Part shown: piece after piece, positions 38,169 to 51,287 of the stretch
Numbering within the stretch: the stretch's first letter is position 1
Layout of the letters: each line of letters starts with the position of its first letter
Source: Methanobacteriaceae archaeon
GTDB taxonomy: Archaea > Methanobacteriota > Methanobacteria > Methanobacteriales > Methanobacteriaceae
Assembly (NCBI GenBank): GCA_029219465.1
Contig: JAQXTL010000004.1
Coordinates: forward strand, 372,001-436,000
Reading direction: 5' to 3'
Length of the DNA stretch: 64,000 nucleotides
Notes under the pieces: generated by a model
Told to the model about the DNA's origin: nothing
Database searches by the model: none
What the model saw: the letters and a program-made list of their open reading frames with translations, nothing else
Position numbers and translations under genes: made by a program

Positions 38169-41100
38169 CTATTTTACAACAGTTATTTTATTTGATATAG
38201 TACATCCACCATATGTTGATGTAATAGTGAATTTACCTACTTTCAATAATTTAATAGACAAAGTAGCTACACCATATTTGTTAGTTTTTGCACTATAGGT
38301 TTTACCATTAATTTTAAAGGTAATTTTTTTGTATTTTAAGATTTTTCCGTTTTTATATACAAGTTTAACTGTAAACTTAGCTGTTTTGGACTTTTTAGCA
38401 GCCATATCTTTAGCTATTAAAGTTGGTTTAAATGTTATCTTACTTGAAGATGAAACACCTTTATAGGATACAGTTACAGTATAAGTTCCAGCTTTCAATT
38501 TAAGAGACAAATAAGCATATCCGTATTTGTCAGTTTTAACAGAGTAAGTTTTACCATTTACTTTAATAGATACTGCTTTACTGACTGCATATTTACCAGT
38601 ATCATCTTTAACACGTACTTTGTATTTGATAACATTTCCGTAGTAAACCGGATTTGCTTTATAGATGGTAATTACAGGTTTATAGGTTACTTTTAAAGTA
38701 GATGATTTATTTGCTGGTTGGAAATAGTCATCATCAACCATTGCAATTATTTCATAATTACCTACGCTGATTGTAGGAATTACACTGCTAAGAGTTGCAA
38801 CACCATTTTTATCAGTTTTTGCCTCACCAATGAAAACATTTCTTCCTTGGACTCTATAGAATTTAACTGTAAGTCCAGATATAGGATTTCCAAAGCTATC
38901 CTTAACAGTAGCTACGAAATTACCTTTGGATGTAGGAAATGCTGATACTCCATTAAGTGTAATATCAAGAGAACCTTTTTGGATGAATAATATTGAAGTA
39001 AACTCTTTTGTCAAATAGTTTTCTTTAGATGCGATAGCATCAATTTTATAATATGCATCAGGAGTGAAAGTTTCATCAAACTTGTAATTCAATGTAGCAA
39101 CACCGTTTGAAGATACTGCCTGACCGATTTCTTCACCTTGAACATAGAATTTGACCAATACCCCATCTACACCAATATCAAGAGTAATTAAACCATTTTC
39201 CAAATATTTAATGATCATATCTGGCATAACACCATTGAAAAGATAAACATAATTGTCCTCAACAATATTTCCATTAGTATTGTTAATAGCACAGTTAGCT
39301 TGGCCTTTTTCAGATTTTAAATAGTTATTGGCAATCTCATTATCAACAGCCAAATCATCAACAAGAATTGCATAACCTTTGATTGAGGTAAAATTATTGT
39401 CTTTAATAATATTGTTAGTTGATTTGGATTTAAGATAAATAGCCCCAACACCACTTCCAATTGAATCATAGACTTTGAAGTTTACTGGCTCGCCAGTAAC
39501 ATTATTCATTATTGTGTTGTTAATAACTGAATTGTATGCTGAATTGGAAAATGCCATACCATAAGCCTGTTTAGCAGTTATATCAAAAGCATTTCCACTA
39601 ATATCATTATTGTTTGAATTGAATAATTCAATACCATAAACAACATCAGCATTTAATACAAAGATATTGTCCTGAATAATTGATTTTTGAGATGTTTCCA
39701 AATTAATACCATAGGAATAATTTTGAGATTTAGCACTGACATTATTTCCAATAAGAACAGTATCTTTAGATTCAGAACCAATTATTAAACCTTGAACGAA
39801 ATAAGTTCCTTCTAAAACAATTACATTATTAATGAATTGGTTATTAGTAGCGTCTTTTCCTTCAGGAGCTTCATGACCAGTGTAATAACCTAATACACCC
39901 ATACCATAGATATAACTGTCATTAGCTTTTATGTAGATGTAATTATCTGAAAAGATGTTATTATGACTATCATAGTACAAGTCAATACCTACAATAGAAT
40001 TGGTAGATATATTATTGTGAACACCAGATGAATTGCTTGTGTAAGAGGTTTTGTTTAATTTAGAAGTTGCATTTACTTTATTTCCTGAAACAACACATCC
40101 AGATGAATATGCCATTAAAATACCATAAGTTCTGTAAACTTCATATAAAACATGATTTCCAGTTAATGTATTACCATCACTGCAAACAGAATCCCCACCA
40201 ACACAAGAAGAACCATCAGTACAAACAGAATCCCCACCAACACAGGTAGAACCATCAACGCAAGTAGAACCATCAGTACAAACAGAATCCCCACCAACAC
40301 AGGTAGAACCATCTACACATGAAGAACTACCATCAACACAGTGACTACTGTCAAATCCATGTGCGATACCAGTTCCGATTGTGTGAATATCATTATCAAT
40401 GAAAGTACAATCTTCAACTGAAATAGCAAGTAATGTATAAGTTAAATAATCACCACTTGAGGTTAGTTTATTACTTATAACATCAACATCACTTGATTCA
40501 ACTACATATATTGCATATGCTGCATTTGGGTCAGTTACATCAATATCACAGTTAGCTATTGTCGCACCTCTAGTATTGTAGACAAGAATTCCCCATGCAT
40601 TAATCCTCGCACAGTTTTTATTTTTAATAGTTAAGTTTTCAACCCATACACCATCAGACAATCTGAATGTGGTATTGTAAAACTTAGGATTTTGTCCTGT
40701 TAATTTAATTGCTGAGTTAATGTATAAAACACCAAGATTTACAAATTCTCCTTCGAAATAGAGAATATCCCCACTTGAAACTAAAGGAGTTAATGTTCCA
40801 CCAACATCAAAGTAATCACGATAGTTTTCAGGAGTTACAATATGAGTAGTTCCATTAAAGATATACTTAGGTTTGGAAGGATCATAAGAACCTTCAGGAG
40901 TTAAAATAGTTCCCCTACCAGCATTATTTTCAATGACATTAACAGTGTTAGAATCTGCTTGTTTTGCATTGATTAAATAATCTTTAGCAACAATACTGTT
41001 TCCGGTAATAGTTATGTTTCCAGGTCTTCTTTTGTCACTTTCTTTATCAATGAAAATACCAGTTCCATTTTTACTTAAAACAGTATTATCCACAATGGAA

Positions 41101-42281
41101 ATGTTAAAGAATTTACCTTTACAATAAATACCTGCTCCAAAAGTGGTAGTGACATCATTACTTTTAATTAAAACATTATCTCCAGCTGCCTGGATACCAT
41201 ATGCAGAAGAAATAACATTAACAACATTGTTTTCAACTACAGAATTACTACCAGCATAAATTGCAGAAAATGAACTTAAAATTAATGCATTTTCAATTGT
41301 ATTGTTGATAATTATTGAATTTGAAGCACCAACAATAGCTTGTTCTCCTCCAACTACAACACCAGGATTATTATAATCAGCACCAGTCAAGTTAATAATT
41401 CTATTATTAATAATTTTATTATGACCTTTGGAAGTAGAAATTCCCTTAAAAGTACCAATTATTCTATTAGAATTAATTTCATTGTATGAACCCATTATTT
41501 GAATACCATAAGCCCATGAGGTTGGTAAAACATTACATTTAATTGTATTGTTGTAAATGAAATTATAATTGGAGTCCCCACCTTTTAAAGGCCCTCCTTC
41601 ATAGCTGGATAAATAAATTCCGTTTGCATCATCCACTTCAACACGATTGTTTGTAATATTGTTATAATGAGCACCAGAAATAAGAACAGCAGGTGTTGAT
41701 CTTGTCCCCATACCATATGTAATACCATAACAACCAAATACATTGTCATTAACAACATTATAATTTGCATCATTAGCAATGCACAATGCATAAGATGCCT
41801 GACCAGTATTATTGATATAACAATCTTTTATAATACAGTTACTAGCACCATTTAAAAAAATTCCATAACAATTATCAACAGTGTTAGTAATTTTCAAACC
41901 GATTATTGAACTTCCGGATGCTTCCTCAGTTAAAGTGAAAACACAATTTTTCATAGGAGTGTCCTGAGAATAAACAATGCTTAACTTTTTATCTATATTA
42001 AACTTAGCATTATTCCAGTTTCCTGTAAAACTAAGAACATCACCGGAGTTAACATCAGTTGCAATTAATTTCCCATTACTACTGAAATATCTTGAATAGT
42101 TACTTGAATCAATCTCATGAATAGTACTTTTTGAAAGCACATCATCAGAAGATGAACTATCCAAAATTACCGGTTCATCAACACTTAAAGTAGTATTCAT
42201 ATCCTCACTTGCACTTACACAGGATATGGATAAAAATAAAAGCATTGATAAAACTATTAAAATATTAAATTTTTTAACCAT
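38169..42281 (-). CDS. Adhesin-like surface protein with beta-helix, Cys-rich insert and Ig-like repeats
   Basis: 1370 residues. A signal peptide (MVKKFNILIVLSMLLFLSIS) precedes two right-handed beta-helix blocks, each introduced by a Y-x-x-Y-F-(S/D)-(S/V)-x-G-x-L-x-x segment (about 55 and 485). A compact Cys/Gly/Ser/Asp-rich tandem repeat with nine cysteines interrupts the second helix (about 645-700). The C terminus has Ig-like domains (about 1090-1370) ending in a basic VVK. It is secreted and presumably wall associated. The ATG at 42281 is used because GGGG lies seven bases upstream; the frame opens a few codons earlier. Confidence 0.88.
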   Translation of the reverse strand: MVKKFNILIVLSMLLFLSISCVSASEDMNTTLSVDEPVILDSSSSDDVLSKSTIHEIDSSNYSRYFSSNGKLIATDVNSGDVLSFTGNWNNAKFNIDKKLSIVYSQDTPMKNCVFTLTEEASGSSIIGLKITNTVDNCYGIFLNGASNCIIKDCYINNTGQASYALCIANDANYNVVNDNVFGCYGITYGMGTRSTPAVLISGAHYNNITNNRVEVDDANGIYLSSYEGGPLKGGDSNYNFIYNNTIKCNVLPTSWAYGIQIMGSYNEINSNRIIGTFKGISTSKGHNKIINNRIINLTGADYNNPGVVVGGEQAIVGASNSIIINNTIENALILSSFSAIYAGSNSVVENNVVNVISSAYGIQAAGDNVLIKSNDVTTTFGAGIYCKGKFFNISIVDNTVLSKNGTGIFIDKESDKRRPGNITITGNSIVAKDYLINAKQADSNTVNVIENNAGRGTILTPEGSYDPSKPKYIFNGTTHIVTPENYRDYFDVGGTLTPLVSSGDILYFEGEFVNLGVLYINSAIKLTGQNPKFYNTTFRLSDGVWVENLTIKNKNCARINAWGILVYNTRGATIANCDIDVTDPNAAYAIYVVESSDVDVISNKLTSSGDYLTYTLLAISVEDCTFIDNDIHTIGTGIAHGFDSSHCVDGSSSCVDGSTCVGGDSVCTDGSTCVDGSTCVGGDSVCTDGSSCVGGDSVCSDGNTLTGNHVLYEVYRTYGILMAYSSGCVVSGNKVNATSKLNKTSYTSNSSGVHNNISTNSIVGIDLYYDSHNNIFSDNYIYIKANDSYIYGMGVLGYYTGHEAPEGKDATNNQFINNVIVLEGTYFVQGLIIGSESKDTVLIGNNVSAKSQNYSYGINLETSQKSIIQDNIFVLNADVVYGIELFNSNNNDISGNAFDITAKQAYGMAFSNSAYNSVINNTIMNNVTGEPVNFKVYDSIGSGVGAIYLKSKSTNNIIKDNNFTSIKGYAILVDDLAVDNEIANNYLKSEKGQANCAINNTNGNIVEDNYVYLFNGVMPDMIIKYLENGLITLDIGVDGVLVKFYVQGEEIGQAVSSNGVATLNYKFDETFTPDAYYKIDAIASKENYLTKEFTSILFIQKGSLDITLNGVSAFPTSKGNFVATVKDSFGNPISGLTVKFYRVQGRNVFIGEAKTDKNGVATLSSVIPTISVGNYEIIAMVDDDYFQPANKSSTLKVTYKPVITIYKANPVYYGNVIKYKVRVKDDTGKYAVSKAVSIKVNGKTYSVKTDKYGYAYLSLKLKAGTYTVTVSYKGVSSSSKITFKPTLIAKDMAAKKSKTAKFTVKLVYKNGKILKYKKITFKINGKTYSAKTNKYGVATLSIKLLKVGKFTITSTYGGCTISNKITVVK
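40175..40345 (-). repeat. Cys-rich tandem coding repeat
   Basis: Within the adhesin gene, a tandem repeat with units of about 15-36 bp encodes CVGGDSVCTDGST-type units, giving nine Cys spaced by five or six residues. Confidence 0.8.
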
Positions 42282-42425
42282 AATATACCCCAATCACATT
42301 AAATTTAAAATAAATTATATTTTAAAAATAATCCAATATATAATAATATTAGTAATTAAAGTATATTTAAAAATTTCTAAAATAAAAAAAAGTAATTTTT
42401 AAAAAAAATAAAAAAGATGACTAAA

Positions 42426-45400
42426 TTAATAATCATCAAAGTCTTCATCGTCTTTTTTAGCATATCCAACTACAAAAATTGCAATTAAAACAATAATAGC
42501 AATTATGATGAATATAGGCATACTAGCTTCAGAAGAACTTGCTGATTTGGAAGCTGAACTTTGAGATAATTCATAAGCATTAGCTTGTGATTCTCCTGCT
42601 GAAGAACTGGAACTTTGAGATTCAGCAGCAGTTTTTGCATCAGCAGCAGGTTGAGACATATCTTGTCCTGCAGATGTTGCCCCACCAGAAGCACTACTAG
42701 ATTGCTCAGTAGCATCAGTACCATTAACTAATTCATGTGCATTTTTACCACCATCTTCCATTTCATATAATGGATCAGTATTAGTAGCTTCAGCCAACAT
42801 TTTTGCAAATTCAGCTTTTTGAGCCTCAGTTAAAGAACTTGCCTGAATAACTTTCATATTGAATTCTAAGTTTTTACAAGTGTGGTGACAACATGCAACA
42901 CCATATTGAAGAACTTGATTCATATACTCATTTGCAAGCTTTTCAACTAATTTACTATCAGCATCCCAAGTACCCTGATTAGCCATATAAATCATATGAG
43001 CAAGAGATGATTGGATACCGTATGAAGTACTTGAGTCAGTTATACCACTAGCAAGGTCTAAAAGAACATCAGCCATTTGATTACCTAATTGTGAATTCAA
43101 TTTATTGTTACTAACAGTTAAAAGACCAAATGCATTTTGCATTCTTGTAGCAATCCAGTTCATACCAGCCGCAGTACCTTTAAGCGGAGTGATATATTTA
43201 GGATTTAAGAATGTAGTTCTGATTTCGAATTCAAGTTCATCTTCATATGTTCTTGAAACATAACGATTTTTATCACGGATATCTACAAATGCAGTATCAG
43301 GTCTTTTCAAACCAGCTTGTTCTCTTAAAAGAGAAGCAGCATTATATAATCCTCCAAACCAATCATAGTAATCATCAGAGTCAAGAACTCTCCATGTACT
43401 ATCTAAGTTTTGTGTGATTAAATCTGTTTTAGTAAGAAGATACTTGAATGTGTCTTTCTGTTTGTTGATACTGATTTCACCATTTTCATCAATAGTCCAT
43501 GCAAATGAAACAGTTTCAAGGTAAATATTCAAACAAGCTTCGTTAAGTGTTGTAATATTCCAGTTTGCAGTGTTAGGAATAAGAGTACTCATTCCAGTTC
43601 CTTCAAGAATATTTCCTGGAAGACCAAATAACCTGTCAAGAGTAGGATTTTCTTTATAATGTTTAATTACATAGTTATCCTTTGCACTTTCATTAGCATT
43701 AGCTGCTAATTTGGTTGCACTAACCATCCAGGTAAGCCAGTCTTTATTACTTGTAACAATACTTGCATATACATCAATTCTAGGCCTATTTACAACAGAA
43801 CCATCATTTAATTTGATTGTTAATTCTTCTAATGGGATTAATTCAACACCAACAACTTTACCATTATTGGACCATTGAGGTTTACAACCTAAGAAATATA
43901 AGAATTCAGCAACACCAATACCTTCAGTTCTTGATATTTCAGTACCCCATAAGATTAATGCATTCATTTCAGGCCATTTACCATGCTGTTCATAATAATT
44001 AGCAAGTAACAAATCAACTATCTTAACTGCAGACTCATAAGCTGCCTGAGAAGGCATTCTTGTTGAATCTGAAGCATAACCATCACTACCAGTTGGAATT
44101 GAATCTCCGTATGCTGGATCTGCAAATAATCCTGCTTTAACATATCCACCAGATAATGCAGTAAGAATAGCATTCCACTCATTATTGTTTTGGATATTTA
44201 CAATAACCTGTTGAGCATAACTCATAGATTGATATAATGAACTATTTTTACTTATACCAAATAGGTTAGCAAAATCATCAACAGATGAACCGTTAACTAA
44301 AGCATCAGCGAAGTTTTTCATAAATGCTTCAACAGCATGACGTTCATTTACGTATTTTACACTGCCTTGAATATCCTTATAGAAATCTTTACCTTTTAAG
44401 TTAGGATATAAGAATTCCATTATCTGATTATAAATTTTAGTTTGAGAAGTAACAATTGTAACAACTTCCCCAGATAATTCTTCACCAGTTAAAATTTTAC
44501 CTATAGTGTGTAAACCATAAGTCATGAAGTCATCGCCCATGTTTTCAAGGTACAAATGCAAATCATCTAACCACTTATCAAATGAAGTAGACTTGTCATA
44601 AGCTTTAAAACCTAATGATGGAGCTAATTTGATGATTTTTTGTTTATATTCATCAGCATTAGAAGTAACATTAAGTTTCATTTGATCTTTGTAGTAAGTA
44701 ATGTAATTATTTAATTCAGCATATTGACCATATAACTCAGATGTTACAATTGCAGGAGTCATGTGAGTAATAAGCATAGCTAAACTTCTATCTCTTGCAA
44801 TCATAGCTTCCCCAGGGTTAGATACAATATATGGATATATAGTTGGAATCTTTGTTAATTCAAAAGACCAGTCACCAGAACCGACACCAAGGTTTTTACC
44901 CGGTAACCATTCTAATGTTCCGTGTGTTCCCATACTAACAATTGCATTTACATGTGCAACTTTATCCATCCATTCATAAAATGCAACATATTGTTGATGA
45001 GGAGGTAATGTCAAATCATGGAAATTATTAATGACTTCATTAATGTCTGCTTCTTCCCATCCTCTACTTGGCTGATAAGTAATGAAAATATTACCAAACC
45101 AAATACCTGGAATGACAAGATACTGATTTCCATCATCTGCGGTGTATACCATAGATTTACCTAGACCAGAACCCCATTGTGAAACCATTTGTTCAAATAA
45201 ACTATCTGGAAGATCATCAGTCAAATCAAGGAATTGATCCATTGAAATTAATTGATTGTGTTTAACCAATTCATCCCAGTTAGATTCAACATATTTTTTA
45301 AGTAATCCACCAGCCCATGAACCTTTGTTACCCATATCGAATAACAAATTGGTAAATTCAGTGATATTCATTTCTTTGCGTATATCACAGGTTGTGTAAC

Positions 45401-47210
45401 CTGAATCATATAATTTAATGAGCAAATCGTATGTACTTTGGAGAACATCTAAATAAGACGCACCGATTTCAGCTTTTCCAGGTGGGTAATTATAAAGAAC
45501 AATTGAAATGATTTTTTCAGAATTGTTTAAATCCTTCAAATCAGCCCATTTACTAGTAAGCTGAACCATTTTATCAACACCAGTCTGAATTACATGAACT
45601 TTAGCATTATCATCCACATATGATAAGATAATAGGACTGAACACACCTTCAAAACTTGGATATGTTACAGAGTAAGTCCATTCAGTTTGAGGTCCAATTT
45701 CACTTTCATAACTATTTTTTGAAATTTCATTAACACCTTTGAGTACTTCAACATCAATGTCTGATAAATCTCCTTCAGCAGAACCATTATTGTAACTTAA
45801 AGACCAGGAATATAATGAAACAATAGAAGAGATTCCTATTGATGAAATATTACTGATTTTGTTTAATATTGAAGACATAGATGGATCTGTGGAAAATTTA
45901 AAGACATTAAATGCTGGTCTACCAACTTCCTCAAAACCTCTGATTAAAGAATCAACTACATCTCCACCACAGTAGTAAGATGCAATAACAATAAAGTTCT
46001 TTTGTGGAGATAATTTGTCAATGAATTCCTGTTCAAATTGTTTATATAATGTAGTTGGGTCTAAAACATCTGCAAACCATTGTGCATAATCTTGAACCAT
46101 CCAATTTAGACTACCTTTACCATCACTGTCATAACCTGGATTGTTTTTAATCCATTGGTTAATTAAACTACCTTCAGGATAAATAGTAAAAATACCTAAA
46201 TCAGGATGATAAAAACCACATTCAGGCCCCATCATAGGAGCATTAGCATCATTAAGAGTCGGATTTGTATATTTAGATGGATCAATTAAGTAAAATACAT
46301 ATTTCAAATAATTCTCCATATTATGCTGCAAAATATCTTGAGACTCAATATCTTCAGATTGGAAATAAGAACCAATGTATGTATTTTCTACAGTATGGAA
46401 AGTATTCTTATTATCGTTTGCACCAACAATTTTCAATCCAGTTGAACTTAAAATTGAATCACTGTAAACACCAAATGTGTATGCAACATTATAGTTAAAG
46501 TTTGCCGGACAAACAGAAAGCAACTTACCTAATTTTTCAGCAGTTAAAGAAGAATAAACTCCTTCAGCAAACATGTCAATATGAACAAATTTTGCATATC
46601 CAAATAACCATTCCCTAGATGAATCATAGTTTCTTGTATCAATGAAAGCTACTCTTTTAGACATCTCCATTAATGCATTTACTTTTTCTGTGTGAGCAGA
46701 AGCATAATCTACTACCAACAAGATATCTGGAATAAAATCAAATGAACCTTCATAAGTTCCTGAATATCTTGTAAAATCCAATAAATTAGATTTTTTAGAT
46801 TCAAAATCTGCATAGCTAACTTCAACGTAGTATTTTTTTGCATTTAAATTTTTAATAATAACTGAACCTTTAGAATCAGTTTTATGTGTTGAAATTAATT
46901 TATTATTGGAATCAAACAATTTAACAGTTGCACCTTCTAAAGCATAACCGTCTTCATTCCAAGTATTGGCAGTTTTATTATAATGATGCTTAACATTAAT
47001 TTTAATTACATTGTTAGATGCGCCTAAAATCTCTTTATCAACCTGAGAACTCTGTAATAGAGAAATTTCACTAACATCATTCTCAATAGCTGAAGCATCC
47101 AATACAGTTTCATTATCTTGCGCTGAAATACAACTTAAAGAAAACATGACTAAAACTAATATACCTAATGTAAATAATAGTTTATTGCTTAATCTTTTCG
47201 TGATTTTCAC
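42426..47210 (-). CDS. Surface-anchored CobN/ChlH-type chelatase-like protein
   Basis: 1594 residues. A Sec signal (about 8-30) is followed by a Cna-B/carboxypeptidase-regulatory-like beta domain (about 65-140), then a full CobN/magnesium-chelatase H domain (about 155-1440). The family hallmark MGTHGTLEWLPGK is near 756-768, with NPGEAMIARDRS just after and WGTEISRTEGIGVAEFLYFLG near 1090. A CCHHTC motif is near 1440. A Ser/Ala-rich stalk (about 1480-1555), one TM helix (about 1560-1582) and an acidic tail end it. So a normally cytoplasmic tetrapyrrole chelatase subunit is displayed outside the cell. The GTG start has GGGG directly against it; ACG at 47201 fits the GGTGA site better. Confidence 0.87.
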   Translation of the reverse strand: MKITKRLSNKLLFTLGILVLVMFSLSCISAQDNETVLDASAIENDVSEISLLQSSQVDKEILGASNNVIKINVKHHYNKTANTWNEDGYALEGATVKLFDSNNKLISTHKTDSKGSVIIKNLNAKKYYVEVSYADFESKKSNLLDFTRYSGTYEGSFDFIPDILLVVDYASAHTEKVNALMEMSKRVAFIDTRNYDSSREWLFGYAKFVHIDMFAEGVYSSLTAEKLGKLLSVCPANFNYNVAYTFGVYSDSILSSTGLKIVGANDNKNTFHTVENTYIGSYFQSEDIESQDILQHNMENYLKYVFYLIDPSKYTNPTLNDANAPMMGPECGFYHPDLGIFTIYPEGSLINQWIKNNPGYDSDGKGSLNWMVQDYAQWFADVLDPTTLYKQFEQEFIDKLSPQKNFIVIASYYCGGDVVDSLIRGFEEVGRPAFNVFKFSTDPSMSSILNKISNISSIGISSIVSLYSWSLSYNNGSAEGDLSDIDVEVLKGVNEISKNSYESEIGPQTEWTYSVTYPSFEGVFSPIILSYVDDNAKVHVIQTGVDKMVQLTSKWADLKDLNNSEKIISIVLYNYPPGKAEIGASYLDVLQSTYDLLIKLYDSGYTTCDIRKEMNITEFTNLLFDMGNKGSWAGGLLKKYVESNWDELVKHNQLISMDQFLDLTDDLPDSLFEQMVSQWGSGLGKSMVYTADDGNQYLVIPGIWFGNIFITYQPSRGWEEADINEVINNFHDLTLPPHQQYVAFYEWMDKVAHVNAIVSMGTHGTLEWLPGKNLGVGSGDWSFELTKIPTIYPYIVSNPGEAMIARDRSLAMLITHMTPAIVTSELYGQYAELNNYITYYKDQMKLNVTSNADEYKQKIIKLAPSLGFKAYDKSTSFDKWLDDLHLYLENMGDDFMTYGLHTIGKILTGEELSGEVVTIVTSQTKIYNQIMEFLYPNLKGKDFYKDIQGSVKYVNERHAVEAFMKNFADALVNGSSVDDFANLFGISKNSSLYQSMSYAQQVIVNIQNNNEWNAILTALSGGYVKAGLFADPAYGDSIPTGSDGYASDSTRMPSQAAYESAVKIVDLLLANYYEQHGKWPEMNALILWGTEISRTEGIGVAEFLYFLGCKPQWSNNGKVVGVELIPLEELTIKLNDGSVVNRPRIDVYASIVTSNKDWLTWMVSATKLAANANESAKDNYVIKHYKENPTLDRLFGLPGNILEGTGMSTLIPNTANWNITTLNEACLNIYLETVSFAWTIDENGEISINKQKDTFKYLLTKTDLITQNLDSTWRVLDSDDYYDWFGGLYNAASLLREQAGLKRPDTAFVDIRDKNRYVSRTYEDELEFEIRTTFLNPKYITPLKGTAAGMNWIATRMQNAFGLLTVSNNKLNSQLGNQMADVLLDLASGITDSSTSYGIQSSLAHMIYMANQGTWDADSKLVEKLANEYMNQVLQYGVACCHHTCKNLEFNMKVIQASSLTEAQKAEFAKMLAEATNTDPLYEMEDGGKNAHELVNGTDATEQSSSASGGATSAGQDMSQPAADAKTAAESQSSSSSAGESQANAYELSQSSASKSASSSEASMPIFIIIAIIVLIAIFVVGYAKKDDEDFDDY

Positions 47211-47400
47211 CCCCTTTTACAATCAATCATATAGCAATATTTTATAATCTACTATGAAATTAAATTGTATTTAAAAACATATAAAGTTTATTGAAATTAA
47301 GTTTAATATTAAAATAATTCAGTCTACTTTAACACATTTTAGATACCTTTAAATATGTAATACGACTAATAAAATGTACCAATATAAAAGAGGTGACAAG
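47211..47400. promoter_or_regulatory. Divergent promoter region of the CobN-like and DUF1002-like genes
   Basis: On the minus strand a TATA-like CTTTATATG lies near 47278-47287 (start near 47255). On the plus strand CTTTAAATATG lies at about 47347-47357 (start near 47380). No clear shared operator was seen. Confidence 0.4.
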
Positions 47401-48204
47401 ATGCATAAAAATAATATTATAATAGCTATTTTATCAATAATAATTATTGGAATGCTTATCCCAGTAGGTTTTTCAGTTAATGACAATCAAGTTGTATTAA
47501 CCTATGGTGAAACAACAAAAAATAATGCTGAATACAAAAATATTGTTGATACATTTTTTGAAAGTCAAACAGGCATTGATTTAAAAGGAGTAAATTCAAA
47601 AATAATCACTGCTAGTGAAGTAAATAAAATTTCAAGTACAATAACTGGGAAAAATTATAATTCAAATCAAATATTTTCATCTGCATTAGTTGATTTAAAT
47701 GATAATGAAAATCTTAAGGTCACTGTAGATAAATCAAAAATCACAACAATAACCGGTGACATGTATATCTCTGCATTAAAATCTGTGGGAATTACAAAAG
47801 GACATATATTTGTAACCAGCCCAATTACTGCAACTGGTGAATCAGCATTGGCAGGAATTATGAATTCCTATGAAGAAGCAAGTGATGTTAAAATTCCAGA
47901 AACCGTAAAAGAAGCAGCAAACAACGAAATCTACACACAAGCAGAAATCGTAAACGATACAAATGTTAGTGCGGATGATTTATCTAAACTTGTTGATGAT
48001 ATTAAAGAAGTTGTGAAAAAAGAAAATATTACAGACCACCAAACTATTGTGGACTTGATTAACAATTATACTATTCAACACAATATCAACATTACAAGCA
48101 GTGATATTGAAGAACTTGCAAATAGTATAGAACAACTTCAAAATATTCAAGAAGACATTGACAATTACCAAACTGAATTGTCCAATGCAATAGATAACTC
48201 TTAA
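47401..48204 (+). CDS. Exported DUF1002 (YpuA-like) protein
   Basis: 267 residues. An N-terminal hydrophobic signal or anchor (about 5-27) is followed by a domain resembling DUF1002/YpuA: VVLTYGETTK, ITGDMYISALKSVGITKGHIFVTSPITATGESALAGIM split over about 105-150, and a helical C terminus. Its function is unknown. The ATG at 47401 follows GGTGA; an earlier in-frame ATG at 47374 precedes that site. It is divergent from the CobN-like gene. Confidence 0.8.
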   Translation: MHKNNIIIAILSIIIIGMLIPVGFSVNDNQVVLTYGETTKNNAEYKNIVDTFFESQTGIDLKGVNSKIITASEVNKISSTITGKNYNSNQIFSSALVDLNDNENLKVTVDKSKITTITGDMYISALKSVGITKGHIFVTSPITATGESALAGIMNSYEEASDVKIPETVKEAANNEIYTQAEIVNDTNVSADDLSKLVDDIKEVVKKENITDHQTIVDLINNYTIQHNINITSSDIEELANSIEQLQNIQEDIDNYQTELSNAIDNS

Positions 48205-49170: not shown

Positions 49171-51287
49171 AAAATGAGTCATTGAAAGGACCGTTATAAC
49201 CTGAATTCATATCATTCGGACCATTATAAGGTTTTGCATCTACTGTTCTAGTGTTAGCCATATCAAGTGAGTATTTAGTATATGAACCTGCAAGTCCACC
49301 CAAAGCACCTGCAGCAGCAGATCCTCAAATTAAAATTGCACATAGTTTTACCCTATTAAAGTTTGCATCATAAGTTTTTGAAATAATATATGATGATGCA
49401 AGACTTCCAATTAAAGCACCTACACCAGCACCTGCAGCCATACCAATATATGGATTTACTGTCACATAACCAATACCAAATCCTACAACAAAACTTGCTA
49501 CATACGAACCAACCTTAATCCAGGTAGATGCTGTTCCAGTTAAACTTTTTGCAAAGCAAACTGCAACAGTAGCATTAGCAGAGGTGATATTTTTATTATC
49601 CATTACTAAAATTCCACCATCACCAATACATATATCCAATCCATTACTATATGCATTATTGTTTAAAAAAGTACAATTATTAGTTATTAATATACCCTGA
49701 CTGAATATTGCACCACCATTTAGCATAGTTTCCAACAAATGAACAATTGTTACATAAGACTGATCCAGTGTTAAGGATTGCTCCTCCCCAGTCTTTTTGG
49801 AACCAATAATCCATTTTATTATCCTTAAATGTAACATTAGTGAATATACAGTTTCCAGCATTGTTTATAACTGCACTGTTAAATCCTTCAATATTTAAAT
49901 TTGATGCAGTAAAGATTCTTTGATCTACTTTTGCCCAATGATCTTCACTGCGACTATTAAATGAACCTTTAATTGTTGAGTTATGACCATTAATATTGAT
50001 TAAGTCAAAACCCAAATCATTAGGGGAAATAGGTTTTATGTAATTAAGTTCCATCTGTCTTAAAAAATTAATATTTAAAGCAGATGTATACTGTATTTTA
50101 TTTAAAGCACCAATATCCTTTTTTAAGATACCCTCAGCAGATTTAAAATGATATGATTTATTATTAAGAATATTTTCATAATCTTTAGTATTATTCACAG
50201 TAACATTTACAATAAATTGATAACAATTTGAATAATCATTATTAATCAATTTTGTAAAAACATCATTAAAATTAGTTACATTCTTAATATGATAATCTTT
50301 TAAGTATGTAATTCCATTTTCAAGATATTTTGAAGTAGATAATACAAATTCATTTTTGTGAATAGTTGCATAATATGAAATATTATTATCAAGAGAGTTT
50401 ACTCCACCTAACATGATACTTTTATAAACCATAGGTACTAAATCAACAGTTTCATTTGCCATATTCGAAAATACAACATTAACTAGCTTATTTGTATCAA
50501 TTTTAGTAATATTTCCATCAATTACATGAAATTGTCCTTTAGATACAAATCCACAATCTTCAATTTTAATGTTTTTGTGATTTTTATCAAGATAAATCTC
50601 ATCTTGTCCTAATTTTGATGAAGAATTAACAAAATAACAGTTTCTAACTGTAGTATTTACATTACTTAAATAAATAGAACCTCCAACTCCCCATGCGAAG
50701 TTGTTTATGAATTTATTGTATTCAATAATTCCATTTGAACCAGACCACTTTATTACACCACCATTAAAAGCACTATTTCCTTCAAATACATAATCAGAAA
50801 GGTGCCCATTATTTCCAACCCAATTAATAGGATTTTTCATATTTGCATTAATAATTCTTAAAATATCGGGATTAGAAATACCAGATTTTAATGAAGCTGG
50901 TTTTTCATTTACAAATTTGAAATTTTTAATTGTAACATTATTACCCAATACATTGAAAAATCCATAACCTTTAATTGAGTTTTTAATGGTTATTGTGTGC
51001 ATATTTCCATCAATAGTCACATTATCTACATTAATATCAATTGATGGCCTATATGCTTTTTCTTTAGTATTATCAAAAACATAATCTTTAGAAACAGTAT
51101 AATGACCTCCAGAAGTAATATTCTGAATATCACTATTTAATTCGTCAAAACTTCCCGGAACTGCAACTGACTCATCTATAACTATTTTACTACTATTAGT
51201 CAAATCTGCAGCACTTGCACAGCACACTCCTAAAAAAAGAAACAGGAATGCAATTAATAAAAAAATATTTAACCTAAAATAATTCAT
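49169..51287 (-). pseudogene. Adhesin-like protein broken by a frameshift and a stop
   Basis: A signal peptide (LNIFLLIAFLFLFLGVCCASA) and beta-helix repeats run in one frame from 51287 to about 49722. Reading one A fewer in the AAA at 49719-49721 joins NCSFVGNYA to NGGAIFSQGILITNN in the next frame. That frame continues as beta-helix and then a Gly-rich hydrophobic C-terminal region, hits TGA at 49327, and stays open after it for 51 more codons (GSAAAGALGGLAGSYTK...) to TAA at 49171, right at a terminator hairpin. So two lesions separate it from an intact ~700-residue protein. The first fragment alone would still make a truncated secreted product. Confidence 0.8.

Follow-up and report, generated by a model that had tools for sequence, protein, structure and literature searches.

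A predicted surface CobN-like protein of a rumen-type Methanobrevibacter as a candidate Co/Ni tetrapyrrole de-chelatase

Exported, membrane-anchored CobN-like proteins have already been published: BtuS1 and BtuS2 of B. fragilis (PMC6460266) and HmuS of Bacteroides, a membrane-bound, NADH-dependent and ATP-independent heme de-chelatase (PMC12583661). The HmuS authors named the role of the many HmuS/CobN homologues in archaea as an open question (PMC12583661). For methanogens, a study of 2010 listed mru2047 of M. ruminantium as a BchH that bears TMHs at both termini and used it as a surface-peptide candidate (PMC2812497), and recovery of heme iron was suggested for BtuS of M. barkeri (PMC10846266). 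The original prediction of a surface chelatase missed this known class, and its placing of known CobN in the cytoplasm is incomplete, the BtuS/HmuS proteins being exported and anchored. A literature search found no functional study of a surface CobN in Methanobrevibacter. The explanation that we prefer for the gene studied here, tentatively and with the balance leaning somewhat against the whole chain, is that of a proton-channel-coupled extracellular Co/Ni tetrapyrrole de-chelatase.

Layout, export and class of the protein

The window, i.e. the whole stretch of 64,000 nucleotides that was analysed, contains a gene with the following layout.

42426..47210, minus strand: surface CobN-like gene, open frame of 1594 aa with a GTG start
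47121..47210, minus strand: signal peptide, about residues 1-30, from hydropathy; cleavage site by eye, between ..LSCISAQ and DNE
46788..46958, minus strand: prealbumin-like (CarboxypepD_reg/SpaA) domain, residues 85-141, Pfam match
43068..46325, minus strand: CobN/Mg-chelatase domain, residues 296-1381, PF02514
42522..42713, minus strand: Ser/Ala-rich stalk, about residues 1500-1563, from the sequence
42459..42515, minus strand: C-terminal TM helix, residues 1566-1584, then an acidic tail, from hydropathy

The full CobN/ChlH-type domain that had been predicted was recovered by Pfam with a score of 612.7 bits over residues 296-1381 (E 1.7e-183, cut-off 24.5). The N-terminal hydrophobic segment reached a Kyte-Doolittle value of 2.46 and the C-terminal TM segment 3.25, the latter followed by the tail KKDDEDFDDY, in agreement with the signal peptide, stalk, TM helix and acidic tail of the original prediction. 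Its Cna-B-like front domain is indeed a beta domain; the match, weak but real, is to a CarboxypepD_reg/SpaA prealbumin-like domain (SpaA 24.3 bits vs a cut-off of 23.1). Export and family membership of the window protein are well supported, and it is predicted to lie outside the cell, anchored in the membrane.

Hydropathy was compared in 44 proteins, 38 of the exported type and six cytoplasmic CobN/ChlH-type controls. A C-terminal hydrophobic segment was present in all 38 exported-type proteins (maximum hydropathy 1.26 to 3.35), and those with a complete N-terminus had an N-terminal segment as well. The C-terminal maximum in the six controls was -0.22 to 0.63, and no C-terminal segment was found in Tsukamurella, Deinococcus, Halorubrum, BchH, a methanogen cytoplasmic ChlH and Marinobacter. 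It is very probable that the window protein belongs to the exported CobN-like class. In a quick tree, proteins of the window type (T1) formed one clade (support 100) near neither HmuS nor the second paralogue, and closer to cytoplasmic CobN/ChlH and T4 than to HmuS under an arbitrary midpoint root, a placement that counts against the preferred explanation. The architecture belongs to a known kind, the BtuS/HmuS type, of which this is an archaeal member.

The window gene is the sole PF02514 gene of a genome that is 99.6% complete. A search of relatives, suggested by the original prediction, recovered the same architecture in 57 related loci, and PF02514 was present in 106 of the 139 genomes of the family; the combination of signal peptide, CobN domain and TM helix is therefore not due to chance. 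The neighbours that recurred in these loci are represented in the window by two genes.

47374..48204, plus strand: exported DUF1002 protein, divergent neighbour, in 33 of the 57 loci
38169..42293, minus strand: beta-helix/Ig adhesin-like protein, downstream; adhesin cluster in 46 of the 57 loci

In most of its 33 loci the DUF1002 gene is divergent from CobN, with a single intergenic promoter region common to both; this region has TATA-like stretches in common, and no regulator site was recognised in it. The downstream adhesin-like protein carries Cys-rich tandem repeats (VDGSTCVGGDSVC.., window 40173-40341). At window 49325-51287 two adhesin-like open reading frames overlap in different frames, probably as one frameshifted gene.

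Fold, cavity residues and the Cys/His motif

An AlphaFold2 model of residues 285-1470, built from 48 sequences, had a pLDDT of 86.2 and a pTM of 0.85. Comparison with CobN and ChlH structures had been suggested at the outset, and the only significant Foldseek matches of the model were indeed CobN (7c6o), HmuS (9d26) and ChlH. Cytoplasmic CobN (7c6o) was the best single-sequence and Foldseek match; HmuS was the top PDB profile match. The relevant motifs, located by alignment, are listed below.

44895..44930, minus strand: family hallmark GTHGTLEWLPGK, residues 761-772; H763 aligns with His538 of HmuS
44808..44810, minus strand: E801, aligned to Glu577 of HmuS (His-carboxylate dyad)
43350..43382, minus strand: DSDDYYDWFGG, residues 1277-1287; D1280 in the place of the HmuS axial His1209
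42876..42893, minus strand: CCHHTC, residues 1440-1445, putative metal-relay site

The catalytic His of the superfamily (H763) was conserved in 40 of 40 aligned proteins and the counterpart of Glu577 (E801) in 39 of 40. H763, E801, D1279, D1280 and D1283 were invariant in 14 T1 proteins and in a set of 48. Such invariance would be needless if the CobN fold served, as a degenerate chelatase devoid of activity, merely as the scaffold of an adhesin or cell-wall protein. This reading can appeal to the adhesin-like genes that surround the window gene and to the varied cavity of other exported CobN paralogues (T3, T5), but we consider it very unlikely.

Where HmuS has His1209 as second heme ligand, the window protein has Asp, as do cytoplasmic CobN and the proteins of Trichlorobacter and Runella. 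The HmuS motif LSLDHxxEFMGG (His1209-Glu1212) was not found at this position, where the window protein has LDSDDYYDWFGG, and the Met79/His254 heme docking pair was not conserved, with Phe and Ser at the aligned columns of a weakly aligned N-terminal region. The cavity residues His763, Glu801 and Asp1280 are CobN-like and not HmuS-like. This bears on the possibility that the protein is an HmuS-like de-chelatase which takes heme iron for Feo-type uptake. The architecture is that of HmuS, as are the top profile match and, in relatives, the order of the accessory genes, and the BtuS proteins of M. barkeri respond to the Fe/S source (PMC10846266). However, the substituted axial ligand, the missing docking pair (with the uncertainty of its alignment) and linked genes elsewhere that indicate Co or Ni make a heme de-chelatase an improbable alternative.

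An ACCHHT(C) motif follows the chelatase domain in window-type proteins, with CCHHT invariant across 14 aligned rows, and CCDxxC variants occur in other surface types. The bacterial homologues of Trichlorobacter and Runella have CCDHTC and CGHTTC, respectively; the motif was absent from HmuS and from the cytoplasmic CobN/ChlH controls in the alignment. Proteins of Diaphorobacter, Comamonadaceae and Pseudoalteromonas combine the Asp cavity with absence of the Cys motif, which counts against a Co/Ni de-chelatase; because of these three, the association of cavity and motif is a correlation and not a rule. In the surface CobN type T3 (L003, L004, L006, L007), GRHGTVAWLPGK replaces GTHGTLEWLPGK and the second cavity motif is altered.

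Partners, metal genes and the DUF2162-ExbB-DUF2149 module

The absence of a CobS/CobT partner nearby, on which the original prediction had remarked, extends to the whole genome: a search with the PF01078 model for CobS/CobT or ChlI/ChlD matched only LonB, MCM and a membrane peptidase. The puzzle that there is no ATP outside the cell has a precedent in the ATP-independent HmuS (PMC12583661). An ordinary chelatase that inserts Co or Ni during cofactor synthesis, its export mis-predicted, would agree with older literature in which genes of this sort were placed in the B12 or F430 pathway (PMC3087415) and with matches to the NCBIfam 'cobaltochelatase subunit CobN' models. These matches are far under the cut-offs (360.7 vs 822.05 for the equivalog TIGR02257, 493.8 vs 1619 for NF004645), and that to the magnesium chelatase H equivalog is so too (TIGR02025, 404 vs 829). 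Given also the signal peptide and TM helix, the outcome of the PF01078 search and the presence of CfbA/CbiX, this origin is highly improbable. A role as Mg-chelatase or F430 Ni-chelatase was rejected in view of export and the presence of CfbA/CbiX.

The window genome has two CbiX-type genes (CfbA/CbiX), CbiD and three CbiM genes; cytoplasmic Co/Ni insertion and corrinoid synthesis are covered by CfbA/CbiX and CbiD. Because of these genes, a surface chelatase would be unneeded for synthesis and could feed Co/Ni uptake. Neither CbiM nor the CbiX-type and CbiD genes lie beside the window gene, and the absence of CbiM there counts against a Co/Ni de-chelatase. In a relative (G135) CbiM is found beside CobN genes and the module described below; the Trichlorobacter homologue has cobT/bzaF nearby, and that of Runella hypF/hypCDE and a 'urease accessory' gene. 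Heme is disfavoured by the cavity, and Co or Ni favoured by the gene context of homologues.

The same pocket could serve a receptor that captures cobamides or related rings and passes them intact to an importer, with the metal in place. The chelatase cavity forms a large pocket for tetrapyrroles, and the Trichlorobacter homologue lies among TonB receptors and cobamide genes, for which corrinoid transport was proposed (PMC3403914). However, the residues put forward as the catalytic dyad of HmuS are both retained (His763 and Glu801), the genome's own corrinoids are served by CbiD and CbiX, and the metal-type Cys motif would be left unexplained. A mere receptor is therefore judged unlikely, if less so than a heme de-chelatase.

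In deep-branching relatives (among them M. curvatus L067, Methanoflexus L075 and Methanosphaera L090) genes for DUF2162, MotA/ExbB and DUF2149 are situated near CobN. The order of surface CobN, DUF2162, ExbB and DUF2149 in relatives is as in hmuSTUV, the Bacteroides hmu operon being CobN-HmuT-ExbB-DUF2149. HmuT of Bacteroides gave no Pfam or profile match to DUF2162, which counts against the preferred explanation; homology of the two could not be demonstrated by this comparison. CobN lies within 15 kb of DUF2149 on the same contig in at least 33 Methanobacteriaceae genomes; in at least 29 of these DUF2149 has the same strand as CobN and lies 2.0-2.6 kb downstream of it. The module is adjacent to the other surface paralogues as a rule. 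The window type is near it in only 6 of 57 loci, a further point against the preferred explanation, and T1 loci that lack it nearby have DUF1002 and adhesins as neighbours. Linkage to ExbB and DUF2149 is thus seen in these orthologous loci and in paralogues, and in the window genome in trans only.

Over 139 genomes, 102 had both CobN and DUF2149, 4 CobN only, 21 DUF2149 only and 12 neither (Fisher p 5e-6, uncorrected for relatedness and incomplete MAGs). The 21 genomes with DUF2149 only imply that the module serves other proteins too, which again counts against the preferred explanation. In a plasmid collection all 10 records with DUF2149 also had CobN (159 CobN records), across three bacterial phyla.

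The window genome has two DUF2149 genes. An intact DUF2162-ExbB-DUF2149 set is located at C7:96741-98436 (L096 8742-10437), beside paaK. In the sisters G042 and G037 (L108, L113) paaK and DUF2162 are separated by another CobN gene and a gene for a beta-domain protein; both are missing at C7, so the second CobN is now lost from this module locus while the module itself is intact. The window gene is hence the sole CobN that it could serve, and we infer that the two act together.

The second set (L097, on C4) consists of a DUF2162 lacking CPCC, ExbB and DUF2149. It is adjoined by the gene of an exported 948-aa protein (L097 11017-13860, C4 at about 501.0-503.9 kb) that combines two FmdE domains with a C-terminal TM and to which a CbiM gene is divergent; judged by its genes, this is probably a second surface metal-handling system. 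Relatives at order and class level (G139-G151) have 5 to 16 PF02514 matches per genome and one DUF2149, often beside CobN, a large chelatase expansion for which one module may be common to all. In Comamonadaceae, a Gram-negative case, the 18 kb shown around a CobN-DUF2149-ExbB trio (L131 7630-12703) contain no annotated TonB receptor, so that there is no receptor nearby to which this module could be assigned.

Proposed reaction and comparison with known systems

Surface display and the handling of tetrapyrroles or metals, as originally predicted, are supported by the architecture, the modelled fold and the conserved catalytic residues. We infer substrate, metal, direction, metal relay and energy coupling as follows. 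The surface protein would bind an external metallo-tetrapyrrole in the chelatase cavity, most likely a corrinoid or an F430-like compound rather than heme. His763, Glu801 and Asp1280 would aid protonation of the ring and thereby release of the metal; a chelatase runs this reaction in the opposite direction. Once released, Co2+ or Ni2+ might be caught by the CCHHTC site and handed to a CbiM-type ECF importer. The conformational work would be done by the ExbB-DUF2149 pair on an ion gradient, not by CobST/ChlID ATPases, with the driving module encoded elsewhere in the window genome. DUF2162 perhaps supplies electrons through its CPCC motif, from which this role is argued since modelling of DUF2162 gave a poor result (pLDDT 66) and Foldseek returned no match. 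The original prediction had named neither partner nor energy source; the module and the HmuS precedent now provide candidates. It is possible, but doubtful, that an ExbB/ExbD-like motor (ExbB-DUF2149), together with DUF2162, stands in for the AAA+ ATPase of chelatases and has the surface CobN itself as its target.

What is new here is that archaeal surface CobN proteins are linked, by gene context, with one particular membrane module and with Co/Ni genes. Should the coupling be true, the protein powered by HmuUV in Bacteroidota may be HmuS and not the TonB receptor. Because these methanogens have neither outer membrane nor TonB receptor, they separate the two readings of HmuU/HmuV, which is hard in Bacteroides. 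Methanogens require Ni for F430 and hydrogenase and Co for corrinoids, and for this reason the mining of Co or Ni from tetrapyrroles that other cells release would, if true, bring a new trait to the ecology of the rumen and might offer a target for methane control.

The methanogen proteins mru2047 (PMC2812497) and M. barkeri BtuS (PMC10846266), matched by description, are CobN-like as well; mru2047 has TMHs at both ends and, by locus numbers, lies beside adhesins like the window gene, whereas for neither were a mechanism and partner module put forward. Cytoplasmic CobN (7c6o) shares the DSDDY cavity motif but is not exported, requires the CobS/CobT ATPases and lacks CCHHTC. The plasmid-encoded CobN of Trichlorobacter lovleyi (PMC3403914) has signal peptide and TM, Asp cavity and CCDHTC motif, and, like methanogen relatives, adjacent DUF2162-ExbB-DUF2149 genes; it differs in its Gram-negative host, TonB receptors, the cobamide genes next door and its local module. 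With HmuS/BtuS (9d26) the window protein shares the PF02514 fold, export with membrane segments at both termini, the chelatase His and the lack of an AAA+ partner; linkage to ExbB and DUF2149 genes is seen in few loci of the window type and, in the window genome, in trans only. It differs in having Asp for the axial His1209, in lacking Met79/His254, in its CCHHTC motif and prealbumin domain, in accessory genes that are not local, in a host that has no outer membrane and in that heme is not implied. The window protein is placed as a variant of this known BtuS/HmuS kind.
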